Positions 4,322 through 60,245 of a stretch of 64,000 bases of DNA are shown here, piece after piece (the first letter of the stretch is position 1; the number at the start of each line of letters is the position of its first letter). The position numbers and the translations under genes are program-made. This DNA comes from Faecalibacterium sp. I3-3-33 (lineage in GTDB: Bacteria; Bacillota; Clostridia; Oscillospirales; Ruminococcaceae). The stretch spans positions 682,001-746,000 of the forward strand of contig NZ_CP094469.1 of NCBI RefSeq assembly GCF_023347295.1, given 5' to 3'. Under the pieces are notes generated by a model. The model was not told the DNA's origin. It did no database searches and saw nothing but the letters and a program-made list of their open reading frames with translations.

Positions 4322-4427
4322 GCCGCTCGAAACTTTGCACACCTCTACGCGGTGGGCGGCAGGCGACACAGCGTGGGTGCTGCGGCTAAGATGCAGAGGC
4401 TTTTGGGGAATGCTAGTGAGGTTGAAT

Positions 4428-9675: not shown

Positions 9676-10078
9676 ACTATTTTCTTTTCTGGGTAACAAT
9701 TTGCCCCTTCTCGATGGCTCGTAAGTGAAGGGACAATTTCCCAAGCGGCACCTGCCGCAGGGCAAAACGTCCGACCTCAGGGACCTTGAAAACTGAATAG
9801 TTCCGTCATCTGGTACTCCGATAATGATACTTCCGTAATTCGCGGCCCGGTCACAAAGCAGACGGGGTGGCTGAAATGCCAATGAAGCGGTACAAGTCCG
9901 CTGCCAGATGTTTATGCCCCACTCGCAGGGGGCCGAGGGCGAATATGCGAGACCTTTAATCATATTGATCCGGGAACTGCCGGGCACGTTTTTGCGCATT
10001 CGGCAGTTCCCGTTTTTTACGTATCCCAATTTAATCTTTACCCGAATATTCACTTTTGATACATAGGAGGACGCTTTT
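9676..10078 (+). other. Hairpin-rich non-coding interval ending in a terminator
   Basis: About 400 bp without a gene. Local stems include TTG.CCCTTC/GAAGGG.CAA (about 9697-9735) and GCGGCA/TGCCGC (about 9744-9760), followed by a CCTTGAAAACTGAATAG segment (9783-9800). The interval closes with the strong terminator at 9971-10018. It could encode a short structured RNA or a leader for the gene at 10079. Confidence 0.4.
9971..10018 (+). terminator. Strong intrinsic terminator
   Basis: CGGGAACTGCC (9971-9981) and GGCAGTTCCCG (10002-10012) are perfectly complementary and are followed by T6. The gene at 10079 starts 60 bp later, with its own AGGAGG site. Confidence 0.8.
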
Positions 10079-10392: not shown

Positions 10393-11067
10393 TTGCAGCA
10401 AAACTGGAAATTCCAACGTGGAGACATCTTCTTCACCCATTTTGGGGCGAGCACTGGCTCGGAACAGTGCGGTGACCGCCCGGCGGTCATTCTTCAGAAT
10501 GACGTGGGCAATTATCACTCGCCGACCCTGATCGTTGCGACCATGACAAGCAAGGCGGAAAAGAAAGTAAATCAGCCGACCCACTGCCTGTTGGAAAACG
10601 CAGGGTTGAATATGCCATCCGTTGTGCAGGCAGAGCAGATCTTCACCATCGACAAGAGCCGGGCGCTGAAGTATCTGGGGCATCTGACCCCGGAGGAAAT
10701 GCGCCGGGTGGATGATGCAGTTCGGATCAGCCTTGCGCTGAACCCTATGGGCAGCATCCAGCAGATAGAGCCTATCCGGCGCTCTACGGCGGTCTACGCG
10801 CCGCCTGAGGTGGTGAATGGCAAACCGCCTGTCTACCCCTATACGCCCATCCGGTCGTCCTTTGAGAACGCCGGTAGCATCGAGGAAATGATGCTGTACA
10901 CCGAGTTGCAATCCGCGGTTCATGCCATGATCCAGCGGCTGGAATACAGCTTCACCTTCAATCCCAGCCTGCTCACCATCCCGAAGCGTAAGCAGCAGGT
11001 GGCTGAGATCTTAGAGGAAGCCGAGAAGTACATTTGGAGAATCAAGGAGGAAATGCGATGCGCCTGA
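10393..11067 (+). CDS. PemK/MazF-family endoribonuclease-like protein with C-terminal extension
   Basis: Starts at TTG 10393 with GGAGGTG at 10381-10387; 224 residues. Residues 1-115 carry the MazF fold signature: FQRGDIFF, GSEQCGDRPAVILQND, SPTLIVATMTS, PTHC, SVVQAEQIFTIDK and a final L..EEM..VDDA. MazF-type toxins cut mRNA. The last ~105 residues are extra, with Pro/Tyr-rich and helical parts, and are not in plain MazF. No MazE-like antitoxin gene is adjacent: upstream is the CxxC protein, and downstream the DGQHT protein overlaps by 10 bp. It may be a toxin paired with a new partner, or a regulatory relative. Confidence 0.65.
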   Translation: MQQNWKFQRGDIFFTHFGASTGSEQCGDRPAVILQNDVGNYHSPTLIVATMTSKAEKKVNQPTHCLLENAGLNMPSVVQAEQIFTIDKSRALKYLGHLTPEEMRRVDDAVRISLALNPMGSIQQIEPIRRSTAVYAPPEVVNGKPPVYPYTPIRSSFENAGSIEEMMLYTELQSAVHAMIQRLEYSFTFNPSLLTIPKRKQQVAEILEEAEKYIWRIKEEMRCA

Positions 11068-11867
11068 ACGACAACACTACTTTCATTGGTATCAACCCGC
11101 CGTACCAGCTTTCGGTCATCCATAGCAGCAAGCTGATCTATCCCCGCGAGATCTACCAGCGGGGCGTGGAGCGCAAGCGGGTGGAGCTGATCGCCAGGGA
11201 CTTCAACGAGTACATCGTTAACGAGCCGAAGGTCAGCTTCCGCAACGGCAGGTACTATGTGATGGATGGGCAGCACACCATCGAGGGCTGCATCCTCCTT
11301 AACGGCGGCGAGGATCGCCCGATCCTCTGCAAGGTCTATACCGGTCTGACGATGGAGCAGGAAGCCCTGCTCTTTGCGGAGCAGAACGGTCACACCGCAC
11401 CTCTGTCGGCGGGCATCAAGCTGCGCGCCAAGGTAGTGGGCGGTGATGCGCCTTCCAAGGCGTTTGTTGCAGCCACCAACCGGGTGGGGCTGTCCCTCAA
11501 CTACGACAGCATGCAGCTGAGCGACTACCGTATCAGCTGCGTGGGCACGGCGCTGAAGCTGTACGACCAGCTGGGCGAAGAAATCTACTGCGAAGCCCTG
11601 CGGCACATCGTGGCAGCGTGGGAGGGCAGACCGGATTCCTTCCGGGCGGCTGTCCTGCGGGGCGTGATGTACTTTGTGCAGCTGTATCATGGACAGTACA
11701 GCGCGGAGCGGCTTGTCCGTGCGCTGAGCGGCGTCCATCCCATGGAACTCTACCGTATCAGCCGGGATAACCCTGCCAAGCTTCCGGGCTGGCGGCGGTA
11801 CGTTTACCCCATCTACACCACCTACAACGGCAAGTGCAGGAAGGATGCACTGCCGATGAAGTTCTAA
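11058..11867 (+). CDS. DGQHT-motif (ParB-like nuclease fold) protein
   Basis: ATG 11058, with GGAGG at 11046-11050, lies inside the last codons of the MazF-like gene. 269 residues. The segment YYVMDGQHTIEGC near residue 76 is the DGQHR-type signature seen in ParB/Srx-fold proteins and DNA-modification-linked families. It is followed by LFAEQNGHTAPLS. These motifs fit the DUF6551-like group of element-encoded proteins. The tight coupling to the MazF-like gene suggests joint action. A terminator follows at 11888. Confidence 0.6.
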   Translation: MRLNDNTTFIGINPPYQLSVIHSSKLIYPREIYQRGVERKRVELIARDFNEYIVNEPKVSFRNGRYYVMDGQHTIEGCILLNGGEDRPILCKVYTGLTMEQEALLFAEQNGHTAPLSAGIKLRAKVVGGDAPSKAFVAATNRVGLSLNYDSMQLSDYRISCVGTALKLYDQLGEEIYCEALRHIVAAWEGRPDSFRAAVLRGVMYFVQLYHGQYSAERLVRALSGVHPMELYRISRDNPAKLPGWRRYVYPIYTTYNGKCRKDALPMKF

Positions 11868-12346: not shown

Positions 12347-12759
12347 ATGATAAATGTAGCTGGACATTTAAGAGAACAGAACGGTACATATCAGATGGTC
12401 CTGAGCTGGAAGGATGCAACCGGAAAGCGCAGAACCAAATCCATCAGCACAGGACTTCCTGTAAAAGGAAACAAAAAGCGGGCGGAATCTCTTCTGCGTC
12501 AGACACAAAAGGAGTTCAACCCGGAAACGATGCAGCAGGTCGGTGACCTGTCTGTGCCGGAATACCTGACCCGCTGGCTGCGGGAAAGCGTGATGAACCT
12601 TTCCCCGGATACTTACGGTCGATACGCCTACGATATGGGCAGGGTCATCATCCAGTATTTTTCAACGATTTTCTCATGGACTGGTTGAAAATGATGAAGC
12701 CCCGCGTGGCGGTCACGACCTATGCAAACTACGAGATCGTGCTCACACGCCGCAGATAA
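12347..12759 (+). pseudogene. int: Tyrosine integrase remnant, N-terminal domains only
   Basis: Starts at ATG 12347 with GGAAAGGAGC. The first 100 residues are an arm-type DNA-binding domain (LREQNGTYQMVLSWKD and GKRRTKSISTGLP) and a core-binding segment (VPEYLTRWLRESV, SPDTYGRYAYDM). At the T-run 12656-12660 the frame changes. The next frame gives FNDFLMDWLKMMKP then AVTTYANYEIVLTRR, again the start of an integrase core-binding domain, and stops at 12757 inside the repeat next to the tRNA. The catalytic domain is absent. Two related N-termini in series suggest a deletion between two integrase genes. Confidence 0.7.
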
Positions 12760-22106: not shown

Positions 22107-22634
22107 GGGACGATTTAGAATGTGCTCCGCTGCGCTCTGCACATATTCAGCGGAATGATTATTTTTATTTTGCAATTCTGGAAAATCTGCGGATTTTCCA
22201 GAATTGCCTTTTCACGGGAGGGTTTGGAACGAACTCCCTCAGTCAAAACCTGACGGTTTTGCCAGCTCCCTCTGAGGGTGAGCCTTTGGCATGGCGGGAA
22301 AGTTTCCGGCTAAACCGCAAAGCTTGCGGGCGGGAACTTGCTCCCCCGGGGGGAGCTGTCGCGCAGCGACTGAGGGGCTTTTAATGGAGAAGCGAAAAAA
22401 GCGTTAAAGCGATAGCGCCGACTGGCGCAGCGCTAGCTTTTTTGTGCTTCGACTTCTTCTTTAGGATTGTCAAGGGCGTGTAGCCCTTGGCCCGTTGCGG
22501 GGTGGGTGGAGTCCAGAGGTAGGGAGGGGGGAGTCGGAACACCCCTCCCTGCCTCTGGCCCAGCGGAGCGTCCCTGCACGCTGACGGCAGGCAAAAACTT
22601 TCCCCGCGGAGCGGAAGCCATTTCAAATCGTCCC
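22107..22634. mobile_element. MITE-like repeat, copy A (composite, about 528 bp)
   Basis: The left end is GGGACGATTTAGAATG (22107) followed by the GC-rich stem, CAGCGGAAT and an AT block. A CTGGAAAATCTGC hairpin and TTTTCACGGGAG follow, closing the ~115 bp arm. The right end is GAAGCCATTTCAAATCGTCCC (to 22634). The middle (about 22220-22600) has a second common gut-Firmicute palindrome with CTCCCTCAGTC / GACTGAGG, and no gene. Its right end supplies the last codons and stop of the kinase gene on the minus strand. Confidence 0.65.
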
Positions 22635-23222
22635 GCCTTGGGTGGTGTCCACCACAAAATCCGCGCTTTCGGCTATGCCGTACTGCGCAAAGTACCCCTC
22701 CTCCAGCGGCACCCACCGGGCGGCAAAATCCGCGTAGCGTGCGCCCTCCCGTGCCTGTAAGCGCCGGGTCTGCTCGGCCTTGGTGCAGGTCACGAACACC
22801 CGCAGCGTCTCGTAGGGGCGCAGCAGCGGGTGGTGGCTGTAACTGCCCTCTAAAATGAGCAGCGGCTGCGCGGGCAGCTGTACCGGGGGCAGAAAAGCCC
22901 CCTCCCGGCAGCTGTACGCCTGGTAGGCCACCGCCTGCCCCGCGTAGGCAGGGCGCAGGGCTTCGTCCCGCAGACGGGTCAGGTCCATGTTGGCGCAGGG
23001 GGTGTGTGCCCAGTCCGGGCTGCGCCGGGCGGGCGGCAGGTAGAAATCATCCGTGCGCAGCAGGGTGCAGCCGGGAAACTGCGCTGACAGCCCGTTGGCA
23101 AGGGTGGTCTTGCCGCTGCCGCAGCGGCCGTCCAGTGCCAGCACCAGCGGGCGGGTGGGCTTTTGCGCCAGCGCGGCGCTCAGCAGCGCAGACAGGGTGT
23201 GCGCGGTGATGGGTGTGGGCAT
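22623..23222 (-). CDS. Uridine kinase-like P-loop NTPase
   Basis: The start at 23222 has AAGGAGG upstream; the longer frame lacks support. 199 residues. Walker A LDGRCGSGKTTLANGL near residue 26, LLRTDDFYLP near 52, a LEGSYSHHP segment near 126, and a basic RRLQAREGARY lid. This is the layout of uridine kinase/phosphoribulokinase-like small kinases. The natural substrate is uncertain. The final residues GGTI and stop come from the MITE-like repeat, so the original C-terminus may have been replaced. Confidence 0.7.
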   Translation of the reverse strand: MPTPITAHTLSALLSAALAQKPTRPLVLALDGRCGSGKTTLANGLSAQFPGCTLLRTDDFYLPPARRSPDWAHTPCANMDLTRLRDEALRPAYAGQAVAYQAYSCREGAFLPPVQLPAQPLLILEGSYSHHPLLRPYETLRVFVTCTKAEQTRRLQAREGARYADFAARWVPLEEGYFAQYGIAESADFVVDTTQGGTI

Positions 23223-27533: not shown

Positions 27534-27549
27534 GTTAGCTTATGATAAC
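27534..27549 (+). promoter_or_regulatory. DtxR-type box upstream of the regulator gene
   Basis: GTTAGCTTATGATAAC, 9/10 to GTTAG-N6-CTAAC, 40 bp before the dtxR start. Suggests autoregulation or read-through control. Confidence 0.55.
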
Positions 27550-27589
27550 ACCGGGCAGGCCCCGGCGCGTAAAAAGGAGAGTGACCGGT

Positions 27590-27991
27590 ATGCAGCTGAC
27601 CGCAGCGCATCTGCGCTATCTGCTGGCCATCTACGAGGTAAGCCGCACCCATCTGGACATCAGCTCCCGCAGCATTGCGGAAAAGCTGGGGGTGACAAAA
27701 CCCTCGGTGGTGCGCATTCTGAACCTGCTCATGGAGCAGGGCATGATCGTAAAGGAATACTACGGTAAAATTTACCTGACCGACCGCGGCATCTGGGTGG
27801 CAAAGCGGGTGCAGCAGGAGCTGGACGCCATTCTGGCGCACTTCCCGCCGGTGAGCGGGGAGCTGACAAGCGAGGAGCAGTGGAGCGCCGCCCTTGCCAT
27901 GACCAGCGCTTTGCCCCAGCGCCTTTTTACCGCCGACTATGAGCGGATGGTGGAGGGGGAAGAGACTTGCGCCGCAGGCGGGACGATTTGA
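27590..27991 (+). CDS. DtxR/MntR-family metal-dependent regulator (short)
   Basis: ATG 27590 after AAGGAGA; 133 residues. The winged HTH is at about 1-70: LRYLLAIYEVS, RSIAEKLGVTKPSVVRILNLL and YGKIYLTDRG are the family's helices and wing. The C-terminal helices are short, and the canonical ligands (early Asp/Glu pair, later C..E..H cluster) are not evident, so metal sensing may differ. The last residues GGTI and the stop are made by the MITE-like repeat that starts at 27980. It is the likely reader of the GTTAG-N6-CTAAC boxes around feo. Confidence 0.75.
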   Translation: MQLTAAHLRYLLAIYEVSRTHLDISSRSIAEKLGVTKPSVVRILNLLMEQGMIVKEYYGKIYLTDRGIWVAKRVQQELDAILAHFPPVSGELTSEEQWSAALAMTSALPQRLFTADYERMVEGEETCAAGGTI

Positions 27992-28262
27992 AATGGCTTC
28001 CGCTGCGCTCTAGCCATAATCAGCGGAAGAATTATTTATAATTTCGCGTTTGTCGCGCTCTGCGGAGCGCTCCAAACGCTATTTTCACAGAAGGGGCTGT
28101 AATGGTTAAATGGCGGTTTGAATTGCAAATGCAGTTGACCGTTACGCCCCCTCCCGTGAAAAGGGGATTCAGAAAAGCCCGCAGGCTTTTCTGAATCCCG
28201 AATAAAAATCTAATTCCGCTAATTATGCGCAGAGCAACGCGGAGCGCATTCTAAATCGTCCC
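27980..28262. mobile_element. MITE-like repeat, copy B (most complete, 283 bp)
   Basis: The left end GGGACGATTTGAAATG (27980) and the right end CGCATTCTAAATCGTCCC (to 28262) are inverted copies, each followed inward by a GC-rich stem, CAGCGGAA/TTCCGCT and an AT block. Inside are two long hairpins, GCGTTTG..CAAACGC (left) and GGGATTCAGAAAAGC../GCTTTTCTGAATCCC (28163-28199), and CCCGTGAAAA flanks. No coding frame. It overlaps the dtxR stop and ends about 43 bp before the ABC transporter gene. Confidence 0.75.
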
Positions 28263-36129: not shown

Positions 36130-36189
36130 TATAATGCAACAGCAACTATTTATGCGCAAAGCAACGCGGCGCGCATTTCAAATCGTCCC
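36130..36189. mobile_element. MITE-like repeat, partial copy C (one end)
   Basis: Only the right-hand arm is present: ATTTATGCGCAAAGCAACGCGG, close to copy B (AATTATGCGCAGAGCAACGCGG) at 28220-28241, then GCGCATTTCAAATCGTCCC ending at 36189. It overlaps the oppF stop codon. The left boundary is uncertain. Confidence 0.6.
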
Positions 36190-37110
36190 GCTTCCGGCGA
36201 GCCACTGCTGTGCCTCGGCGTCATTGCACAGCACCCAGTGCCGGGGACGCAGCTGGCGCCACGCGGGGGGCGCTGCGGTGTAATCGTGCATGGCGGGGTC
36301 GTAGACCAGCAATTGCTTTTCCCGCTCCCGGCGCGGGTCCGGCATGGGAATAGCAGAAAGCAGGCTGCGGGTGTAGGGGTGCAGCGGGTGGGTGACCAGC
36401 TCCTCGGCGTCCGCCAGCTCTACGATATGCCCCTTGCGGATGACGGCAATGCGGTCGGAAATATAACGCATCACCGAAAGGTCGTGGGCGATGAACAGGT
36501 AGGTGATGCCGCGCTGCTTTTGCAGCTGACGCAGCAGGTTGAGCACCTGCGCCCGGATGGACATATCCAGCGCGCTGATGGGCTCGTCTGCCACGATGAA
36601 CTCCGGCTCTACGATGAGCGCCCGGGCAATGCCGATGCGCTGCCGCTGCCCGCCGGAAAATTCGTGGGGAAAGCGGCTGGCAAACTCCGGCAGCAGACCT
36701 ACGTCCAACAGCGCCTGCCGCACCTTCTCCTCCCGCTGCGCGGCGGTAAGCTCCGGGCGCACGTTCTGCAACCCCTCGCCTACGATGTAGCTCACCTTGG
36801 CGCGCTCGTTCAGGGAGGATTGCGGGTCCTGAAAGATCATCTGGATTTCCCGGGTGAGCTGCCTGTCCAGCGCGCGGGAGATTTTGCCGTTGATGCGCTG
36901 ACCCTTGTATAAAATCTCGCCGCCGGTGGTGGGCAAAATGCGCAGAATGGCGCGGCCGATGGTGGTTTTGCCGCTGCCGCTTTCGCCCACAAGACCGAAG
37001 GTCTCGCCCTTATAGATGGTAAAGCTGGCGTTCTGCACCGCAGGGTACGCTTTGCGCCCGCTGCCGTAGGTCACCTGTAAATTTTTTACTTCCAGTAACG
37101 GCTCTGCCAT
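36178..37110 (-). CDS. oppF: Oligopeptide ABC transporter ATP-binding protein OppF
   Basis: 310 residues. Walker A GESGSGKTTIGRAI near 39, Q-loop MIFQDPQSSLNERAKV, signature FSGGQRQRIGIARAL near 146, Walker B FIVADEPISALD near 170, H-loop IAHDLSVMRYISDR. The C-terminal oligopeptide-transporter extension (DPRREREKQLLVYDPAMHDY) is shortened and ends in SGTI from the MITE-like repeat. It pairs with OppD to energise peptide uptake. Confidence 0.9.
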   Translation of the reverse strand: MAEPLLEVKNLQVTYGSGRKAYPAVQNASFTIYKGETFGLVGESGSGKTTIGRAILRILPTTGGEILYKGQRINGKISRALDRQLTREIQMIFQDPQSSLNERAKVSYIVGEGLQNVRPELTAAQREEKVRQALLDVGLLPEFASRFPHEFSGGQRQRIGIARALIVEPEFIVADEPISALDMSIRAQVLNLLRQLQKQRGITYLFIAHDLSVMRYISDRIAVIRKGHIVELADAEELVTHPLHPYTRSLLSAIPMPDPRREREKQLLVYDPAMHDYTAAPPAWRQLRPRHWVLCNDAEAQQWLAGSGTI

Positions 37111-59854: not shown

Positions 59855-59864
59855 GATAGCCGCA

Positions 59865-60245
59865 GGACGATTTTGAATGCCCTCCGCGCCTTACGGGTTG
59901 CGGCACCCAGCATCCGCATCGTGCCTTAGACGGCACTTGCGTCTTGCTGGCCGCTGCCCCAACAACTCCTCCCTGTTTCCGCCACTGGCGGCGGTCGTCG
60001 TCGTTGCTGGGCATTTTTAGCGGAAAGATTATTTCTAATTTTGGGACAGCGGAGCGTCTGCGGACGCTCCGGTGTTCCGTTTTCACAGAAAGGGATGTTG
60101 CGGGGAACTGGCTGTTTGCCGTCAGGGCTCCAACCGTGAAAAAAGGGCTTCAGAAACGCCCGCAGGCGTTTCTGAAGCCCAGTTATAAAAATGAAATTCC
60201 GCTGATCATGGCCAGAGCGAAAGCGGCGGCCATTCAAATCGTTAT
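59865..60245. mobile_element. MITE-like repeat, copy E (about 381 bp)
   Basis: The left end is AGGACGATTTTGAATG, the right end CATTCAAATCGTTA; inward there are TTAGCGGAAAGATTATTTCTAATTT (left half, at about 60017) and ATGAAATTCCGCTGATCATGGCC (right). Two hairpins: GCGGAGCGTC/GACGCTCC (about 60049) and GGGCTTCAGAAACGC/GCGTTTCTGAAGCCC (about 60146-60181). An extra ~90 bp sits in the left arm. It fills the 412 bp gap between convergent genes; no gene inside. Confidence 0.65.

Follow-up and report, generated by a model that had tools for sequence, protein, structure and literature searches.

We analysed a 64,000-nucleotide stretch of the Faecalibacterium sp. I3-3-33 genome (contig NZ_CP094469.1, positions 682,001 to 746,000; referred to below as the window and numbered from its first letter), in which four copies of a palindromic repeat, designated A, B, C and E, are found. 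Faecalibacterium is a common human gut commensal. Copy B is about 280 bp long, has terminal inverted repeats and numerous relatives in the genome and contains no coding gene, as is characteristic of miniature inverted-repeat transposable elements (MITEs). Copies A, B and C each meet the 3' end of a gene and write its Thr-Ile-stop ending, while copy E is flanked by convergent genes, to neither of which it supplies a stop. Each complete half of the repeat has an outer arm and an inner hairpin. The features are as follows:

22107-22634: copy A, whole
22107..22155 (+): copy A, left arm, 49 nt
22172..22207 (+): copy A, terminator-like inner hairpin (perfect 16-bp stem, TGCG loop, then CTTTTCACGGG)
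22600..22634 (-): copy A, right arm, truncated, gives the kinase-like gene its Thr-Ile-stop (22623)
22623..23222 (-): P-loop kinase-like gene, ending in QGGTI-stop
27542..27991 (+): MarR/DtxR-type regulator gene, ending in AGGTI-stop inside the arm
27980-28262: copy B, whole
27980..28028 (+): copy B, left arm
28046..28079 (+): copy B, left inner hairpin, mismatched within the stem, TGCG loop, then TATTTTCAC
28164..28199 (-): copy B, right inner hairpin, read on the minus strand towards the middle of the element, with CTTTTCACGGG behind it
28214..28262 (-): copy B, right arm
36149..36189 (-): copy C, a lone truncated arm, gives oppF its Thr-Ile-stop
36178..37110 (-): oligopeptide ABC (ATP-binding cassette) transporter ATPase gene (oppF-like), ending in GSGTI-stop at 36178
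about 59864-60245: copy E, whole
59864..60025 (+): copy E, left arm, its hairpin loop holding a nested insert of about 110 nt
60043..60078 (+): copy E, left inner hairpin, 88% complementary
60145..60180 (-): copy E, right inner hairpin, 16 bp without mismatch
60197..60245 (-): copy E, right arm

A MITE-like palindromic family with these four copies had been proposed in the initial annotation, and it is borne out both by re-reading of the sequence and by the occurrence of 135 arms genome-wide. The ends of A, B and C are as proposed there (C being a lone truncated arm), but the left end of E reads AGGACGATTT and not GGGACGATTT. As a single RNA strand, copy B is predicted to fold with an energy of -145.9 kcal/mol (z -12.5). 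The kinase-like product matches only AAA_18, AAA_33 and Zeta_toxin in Pfam, all below the cut-off.

The genome, a single contig of 2,994,777 bases, was searched with a covariance model built on 72 of the 78 arms found by pattern; the six omitted arms carry a nested insertion. The search found 135 arms at E <= 0.05 (the weakest at 0.01); it scored 150 of 2,215 first-look candidates, so the true number may be higher. Not counted in the 135 are the right arm of copy A, which is truncated, and the six arms with a nested insertion, including the left arm of E. A blastn search of the genome with copy B gives 69 matches, certain places being counted on both strands, and the 16-nt end pattern matches 118 times at up to two mismatches, compared with 20 times for the reversed control. 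Nineteen inverted pairs have their arms less than 800 bp apart, and the other 97 arms are single, although a degenerate partner may have been missed. Arm density along the chromosome is uneven: 59 arms fall within 0-0.85 Mb (69 per Mb), 26 within 0.85-2.16 Mb (20 per Mb) and 50 within 2.16-2.99 Mb (60 per Mb).

Anatomy of the arm and the inner hairpin

The arm consensus is GYRRR-ACGATTT-NN-AATGNNC-TCCGC..GCTCTG-NNCATNN-TCAGCGGAA. In the 72 arms of the model, 98.8% of the cells of the first helix (ATGNNC/GNNCAT) are paired, three of its pairs are doubly changed with CG, GC and UA interchanged, and its 3' side played no part in arm selection. Taken jointly, the two arm helices have 85.6% of cells paired, compared with 77.5% in shuffled and 31-43% in slid versions, and a covariation score of 0.200, compared with 0.064 in shuffles. 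A pseudoknot of TCCGC with GCGGA, interleaved with helix 1, was also considered and rejected, as covariation is slight there and just 74% of the cells are paired, despite the arms having been chosen on those letters.

The ACG of the arm is nearly constant while the adjoining base varies, G preceding it in 75 of the 135 arms. The bases beyond ACGATTT are variable too (GGG in 32/135, AAA in 21/135). GYRRR stands directly before 44 of the 135 arms, compared with 2.1% of intergenic positions, and does so at a similar rate in all four context classes (9/28, 10/29, 10/32 and 15/46); it is therefore either the true element end or a target.

An AT-rich block follows the arm, and beyond it is the inner hairpin, whose centre is in most cases 77-80 nt from where the arm begins. 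It was found in 117 of the 135 arms, in 78 distinct sequences, with 96.8% of positions paired compared with 60.1% when shuffled; since these hairpins were chosen by three loop types and at least 8 pairs out of 14, the former value is inflated. When no loop was required, a stem of at least 9 bp was present in 105 of the 135 arms. Counting the closing pair, 90 of these 105 stems have the loop C(TGCG)G and one has the complementary CCGCAG. Loops of the cUNCGg type are stable in RNA. TTTT adjoins the inward stem end in 88 of the 105 cases and the outward end in five. A stable hairpin with a T-run is what defines an intrinsic terminator, and because TTTT sits mostly at the inward end, the inner hairpin looks like a terminator for transcripts entering from outside. 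Across 98 distinct hairpins of the family, G-T accounts for 3.2-3.9% of the pairs in the stem, compared with 8-10% in 199 other terminator-like sites from the fetched stretches, some of which may be false.

Other repeats are found within the copies. Six arms have a second repeat (GGGTTGCGGCACCCAGCATCCGC..., about 110 nt) inserted into the loop of the arm hairpin, as though this loop served as its target: at 59864-60025 of the window and at genome positions 10659, 213559, 2364683, 2602624 and 2843669. It is matched at about ten places in the genome of a related strain, L060. A further intergenic repeat, of the type CCCTCTCAGTC..GCCAGCTCCCCC, lies inside copy A (22200-22600 of the window) and replaces the arm at several sites of the L060 genome.

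Arms at gene ends and changes in protein C-termini

All 135 arms were fetched with their surroundings and compared by gene context. A gene 3' end is faced by 89 of them, with a median distance of 17 nt from stop to arm, and a gene start by the other 46, at a median of 107 nt. Among the 89, the stop codon ends inside the arm in 10 cases, up to 6 nt before it in 18, at 7-30 nt in 29, at 31-110 nt in 30 and further away in two. Arm-bearing intergenic regions (n=115) comprise 58 tandem, 50 convergent and 7 divergent ones, while the other intergenic regions longer than 20 bp in the same stretches (n=234) comprise 161, 25 and 48, respectively. Convergent regions are thus enriched with arms (p 1e-11) and divergent ones depleted (p 3e-4), and the preference for gene 3' ends noticed in the window holds for the whole genome.

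Of the 30 arms with a stop 31-110 nt upstream, 23 come after a hairpin that is followed by a T-run. Between this T-run and the arm lie 5-14 nt in 21 of them, 5-12 nt in 18 and 7-8 nt in 12; in two the interval is 26-27 nt. Many of the terminators ahead of arms have a common GCNGCACAG..CTGTGCNGC-like stem.

The three tails shared in the window, QGGTI, AGGTI and GSGTI with stops at 22623, 27991 and 36178, were read correctly. The initial annotation took them for a tuned insertion habit, with the element providing a stop in one entry frame, and this is not supported by the genome-wide counts. The stop ends inside the arm in only 10 of the 89 cases, at arm positions +1 (three), +4 (two), +8 (one), +9 (three) and +10 (one), with entry frames 2, 0 and 1 used six, three and one times. 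The Thr-Ile ending corresponds to the +9 class, namely its three cases and the right arm of A; four genes were accordingly found to owe a Thr-Ile-stop to an arm, the three window genes at the right arm of A, at B and at C and a further gene at 2843257. None of the six arms with a nested insertion produces this ending. The two bases that would complete the stop in this frame are variable (AA 28, GA 27, GG 26, TG 26, AG 12, TA 9 and others 7; n=135). A stop occurs within 12 nt of the arm start in 49, 41 and 13 of the 135 arms in the three frames; since stops are met in all three, the arm is not built to close one frame. As 79 of the 89 genes terminate before the arm, we rejected rewriting of stop codons as a general habit. 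The window is rich in a rare outcome.

Where the arm does write the ending, proteins were expected to differ from their homologues at the C-terminus. Four named Faecalibacterium loci with 83-97% protein identity to the window (L058-L061, L059 being F. hattorii) were compared. The expectation is borne out for the regulator, which ends ..EETCAAGGTI in the window, ..EEEKHP in L060, ..EKAETEKAQ in L058 and L061 and ..EMEIEL in L059. More widely, the regulator was matched in 23 of 30 fetched loci from 18 genomes (one, L240, read out of frame), and out of the 18 genus genomes that reach the gene end, the GTI tail is present only in that of the window. For the kinase and oppF the expectation holds in part. 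The kinase-like protein ends in ..TI in the three genomes with an arm there, those of the window, L060 and L058, the last two holding an arm remnant; L059 and L061 have neither arm nor TI ending. The kinase-arm case is older. oppF of L060 has no arm, lacks the neighbouring 4.4 kb as well and still ends ..SGTN, because GGGACGA remains there. The same GTI tail in an arm-free homologue would have argued against the proposed reading; the oppF ending of L060 is the case that bears on this point. The regulator homologues lack GTI.

Nine gene ends with an arm at the stop are arm-free in the L060 genome. One of them, that of copy B, is shifted, and the stop-codon type differs in five of the other eight, compared with 7 of 46 unshifted arm-free genes (p 0.0095); the groups in this comparison were set after seeing the data, the numbers are small and TAA/TGA changes are common.

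Distribution and turnover in Faecalibacterium

Arm matches were found in 9 of 31 Faecalibacterium genomes, eight of them carrying 68-133 arms and one a single weak match; the remaining 22, F. hattorii L059 among them, gave none. A sample of 197 genomes of the family, searched under stricter filters, gave two arm matches, both within Faecalibacterium. No match of the repeat was found among 72,556 plasmid records, so spread on plasmids is not indicated by that collection. Matches occur in 11 unannotated faecal 'Bacteriophage sp.' records and in two viral contigs, which may be chromosomal fragments. The two contigs, from IMG/VR, carry paired arms (L224 at 11001-11314, L225 at 12372-12656) and are possibly prophage or fragments of a Faecalibacterium chromosome.

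Copy B is absent from L060, where the flanks are 95-98% identical, and from L058, L059 and L061. In L060 the regulator ends EEEKHP-stop, overlapping the next start codon (ATGA), and in all four loci the regulator and the following gene overlap or abut. In the window the regulator and the ABC exporter gene are 313 bp apart, and about 330 bp is added, of which about 46 bp lies outside the arms. As copy B is missing from all four relatives, it was, most simply, gained in this lineage. Two further genomes (G210 and G223, 97.5% and 96.5% identical over the compared part of the regulator) have a third arrangement at this site.

At 38 sites compared with the L060 genome, the arm is common to 13 and missing by pattern in 25, although among the latter 413807 shows an arm by eye and 2396793 keeps an ACGATTT remnant; one more chosen site, 193361, has no match in L060. 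CGTCCC is kept at the junction of three arm-free L060 sites (778275, 2282018 and that of copy C) and could be either a remnant or a pre-existing target. Orthologous arms at one site switch type en bloc between strains (2385054, 2378468), intergenic 3' regions are exchanged wholesale, terminators included, and at 844276 the L060 genome has the inner hairpin without the arm. At the sites compared, gene 3' ends turn over much faster than genes. From one strain to the next, a gene end can also have its entire terminator exchanged for another sequence of the same shape.

No Rfam family matches any window copy at the gathering score, and copy B gives only sub-threshold matches at a lax setting, so a known non-coding RNA was rejected as an explanation of the repeat. 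Elsewhere in the window, two HDV (hepatitis delta virus)-like ribozymes of the F. prausnitzii type (RF02682, 68 bits each) lie on the same strand about 1.6 kb apart, at 2721-2789 and 4322-4398, and a pemK RNA motif (RF02913, 72.7 bits) is located at 9821-9885. The ribozyme matches, together with the protein identities to L058-L061, assign the genome to Faecalibacterium.

Possible origin and related repeats

We consider it probable that the repeat is a non-autonomous, formerly mobile palindromic family of some Faecalibacterium species which amounts to a portable two-way cap for gene 3' ends. Each half would consist of an arm with its covarying hairpin, an AT-rich spacer and a terminator-like hairpin reading inward, and two such halves joined back to back would terminate transcripts arriving from either side. 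The arm, GYRRR-ACGATTT, would probably be read as a folded single strand by the mobilising enzyme or by the cell. Copies would settle where they are nearly harmless, either at a stop codon or directly after it, or else a little way past the T-run of a terminator already present, at a spacing that varies rather little; hairpins with T-runs, or transcript ends, may in addition be preferred as targets. When a copy lands a few bases early, its first bases would become the last codons and the stop of the gene.

Several observations weigh against this explanation. Two of the five covariation measures are no better than shuffles (doubly changed pairs, 224/500; pair types, 167/500). No target-site duplication is seen, exact direct repeats being 0-4 bp in 18 of the 19 inverted pairs and 6 bp in one, although old copies might have lost it. 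Between outward arms nothing transposase-like was noticed by eye in 14 spans, as far as they were fetched, and the genes between outward arms 0.7-6 kb apart look, by eye and in the fetched parts, like housekeeping genes. Neither a Y1 transposase (PF01797, 0 matches) nor RVT_1 was found in this genome, in a search that did not cover other transposase families, DDE included. No clean empty site is available either, as the 14 sites viewed in the L060 genome mostly hold other hairpins, repeats or half an arm. In tandem context, single arms show no alignment with the direction of transcription, 20 pointing along it and 30 the opposite way, and 123 of 301 arm-free gene ends also have a terminator-like site within 110 nt, at a stem cut-off of at least 8 compared with at least 7 for arms. 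The distances behind T-runs stand without a null, and the gene positions come from a codon-usage gene-calling script and not from curated annotation. Finally, the location at gene ends may simply reflect which copies survived selection.

This last point corresponds to an explanation which we regard as a real possibility, if under an even chance: insertion was random, copies in genes, promoters and operons were lost, and there is neither target preference nor host function. It agrees with 5'-facing arms being far from starts and 3'-facing ones close to stops, but does not predict the apparent 7-8 nt gap behind the T-run in 12 of 23 cases, nor GYRRR before a third of the arms in every class, unless GYRRR is the true element end. 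A classical MITE, mobilised in trans by a DDE insertion sequence via its GGGACGATTT inverted ends, would fit the terminal inverted repeats, the length, the lack of a coding gene and the high copy number; we find it rather unlikely in view of the lacking target duplication in 18 of 19 pairs and the variable bases outside ACGATTT, and DDE ends are not known to need a covarying hairpin. The arm with its terminator could also be a host 3'-untranslated region format of some species, spread by gene conversion and never mobile. The en bloc switches at 2385054 and 2378468, the wholesale swaps of 3' intergenic regions and the arm-free inner hairpin at 844276 in L060 speak for such a format, yet it appears unlikely given that 22 of 31 genus genomes have no arm match, that 46 of the 135 arms face gene starts and that copy B splits genes which overlap by ATGA in L060, a disruption rather than upkeep.

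Mobilisation by known enzymes of hairpin-ended elements was considered too, either as a repetitive extragenic palindromic sequence or bacterial interspersed mosaic element (REP/BIME) moved by the Y1 transposase RAYT (REP-associated tyrosine transposase), or as a structure inserted by group IIC intron machinery. Hairpin ends, absence of target duplication and a place behind terminators suit both, and group IIC intron machinery favours terminators. Y1_Tnp is present in 6 of 8 carrier genomes compared with 5 of 23 others (p 0.012); the match in genome G208 covers just a short fragment, and the 23 include several incomplete genomes. This excess keeps a RAYT-like origin in consideration, even though RAYT is rejected as the mobiliser in this genome, which is the richest in arms and has no Y1_Tnp; only one of six examined Y1 loci has an arm, and the element is about 280 bp long, compared with 20-40 bp for REPs, with a varying base beside ACG. 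A group II reverse transcriptase was rejected as well, since RVT_1 is missing here and shows no clear link with carriers (5/8 compared with 8/23, p 0.23). Taken together, the RAYT and group IIC routes are quite unlikely. Returning to the mobile 3'-end cap, a bolder version, unlikely in our estimate, would have the family defined by shape and not by sequence. Pairing would be kept while letters change freely with few G-T intermediates, as if palindromes were rewritten in one step from their own opposite strand, and a hairpin-directed mechanism without target duplication would set copies at stops or at a near-constant distance behind terminators.

Whatever its origin, a two-way terminator-like repeat entering operons could uncouple genes and edit protein tails, and the 78 terminator-like hairpins around one loop type constitute a natural set for testing terminator function and the concerted evolution of palindromes. 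We found no description of this family in Faecalibacterium in the open-access literature, subscription papers being outside the search.

Similar repeats are known in other bacteria. BOX of Streptococcus pneumoniae is likewise an interspersed folded repeat, in excess between convergent genes and with a stop codon inside; according to the part of the published account dealing with it, BOX encodes the stop at the extreme 3' end of 36 coding sequences, and its authors saw no strong evidence for truncation by BOX (PMC3049150). BOX, however, belongs to another genus and is built of A-B-C modules, and that part of the account describes neither an inverted terminator pair nor covarying stems (PMC3049150). 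SPRITE of the same species resembles our repeat in being terminator-like, in lying near gene 3' ends and in its strongest enrichment between convergent genes, but is an 18-bp duplex with a long U-rich tract, with no inverted outer arms in the corresponding part of that description (PMC3049150). QMITE1 and QMITE2 of Coxiella burnetii, as presented in the relevant portion of their report, are palindromic MITEs which overlap gene 3' ends by 1-50 bp, one copy presumably adding 33 residues to EnhC in one strain; the Faecalibacterium family differs in sequence and host (PMC5896051). GTAG- and CGTC-tagged REPs are also hairpin repeats, often dimers, and the CGTC ones, in the passages that treat them, seem to have no dedicated transposase either; they are 20-40 bp long, compared with about 280 bp here, and the GACG/CGTC tag is present in only 75 of our 135 arms (PMC3733652). 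The kind of element is therefore known from BOX, SPRITE and QMITE, while the family itself, its two-hairpin architecture with free stems and a fixed loop, and its spacing behind terminators seem to be new.
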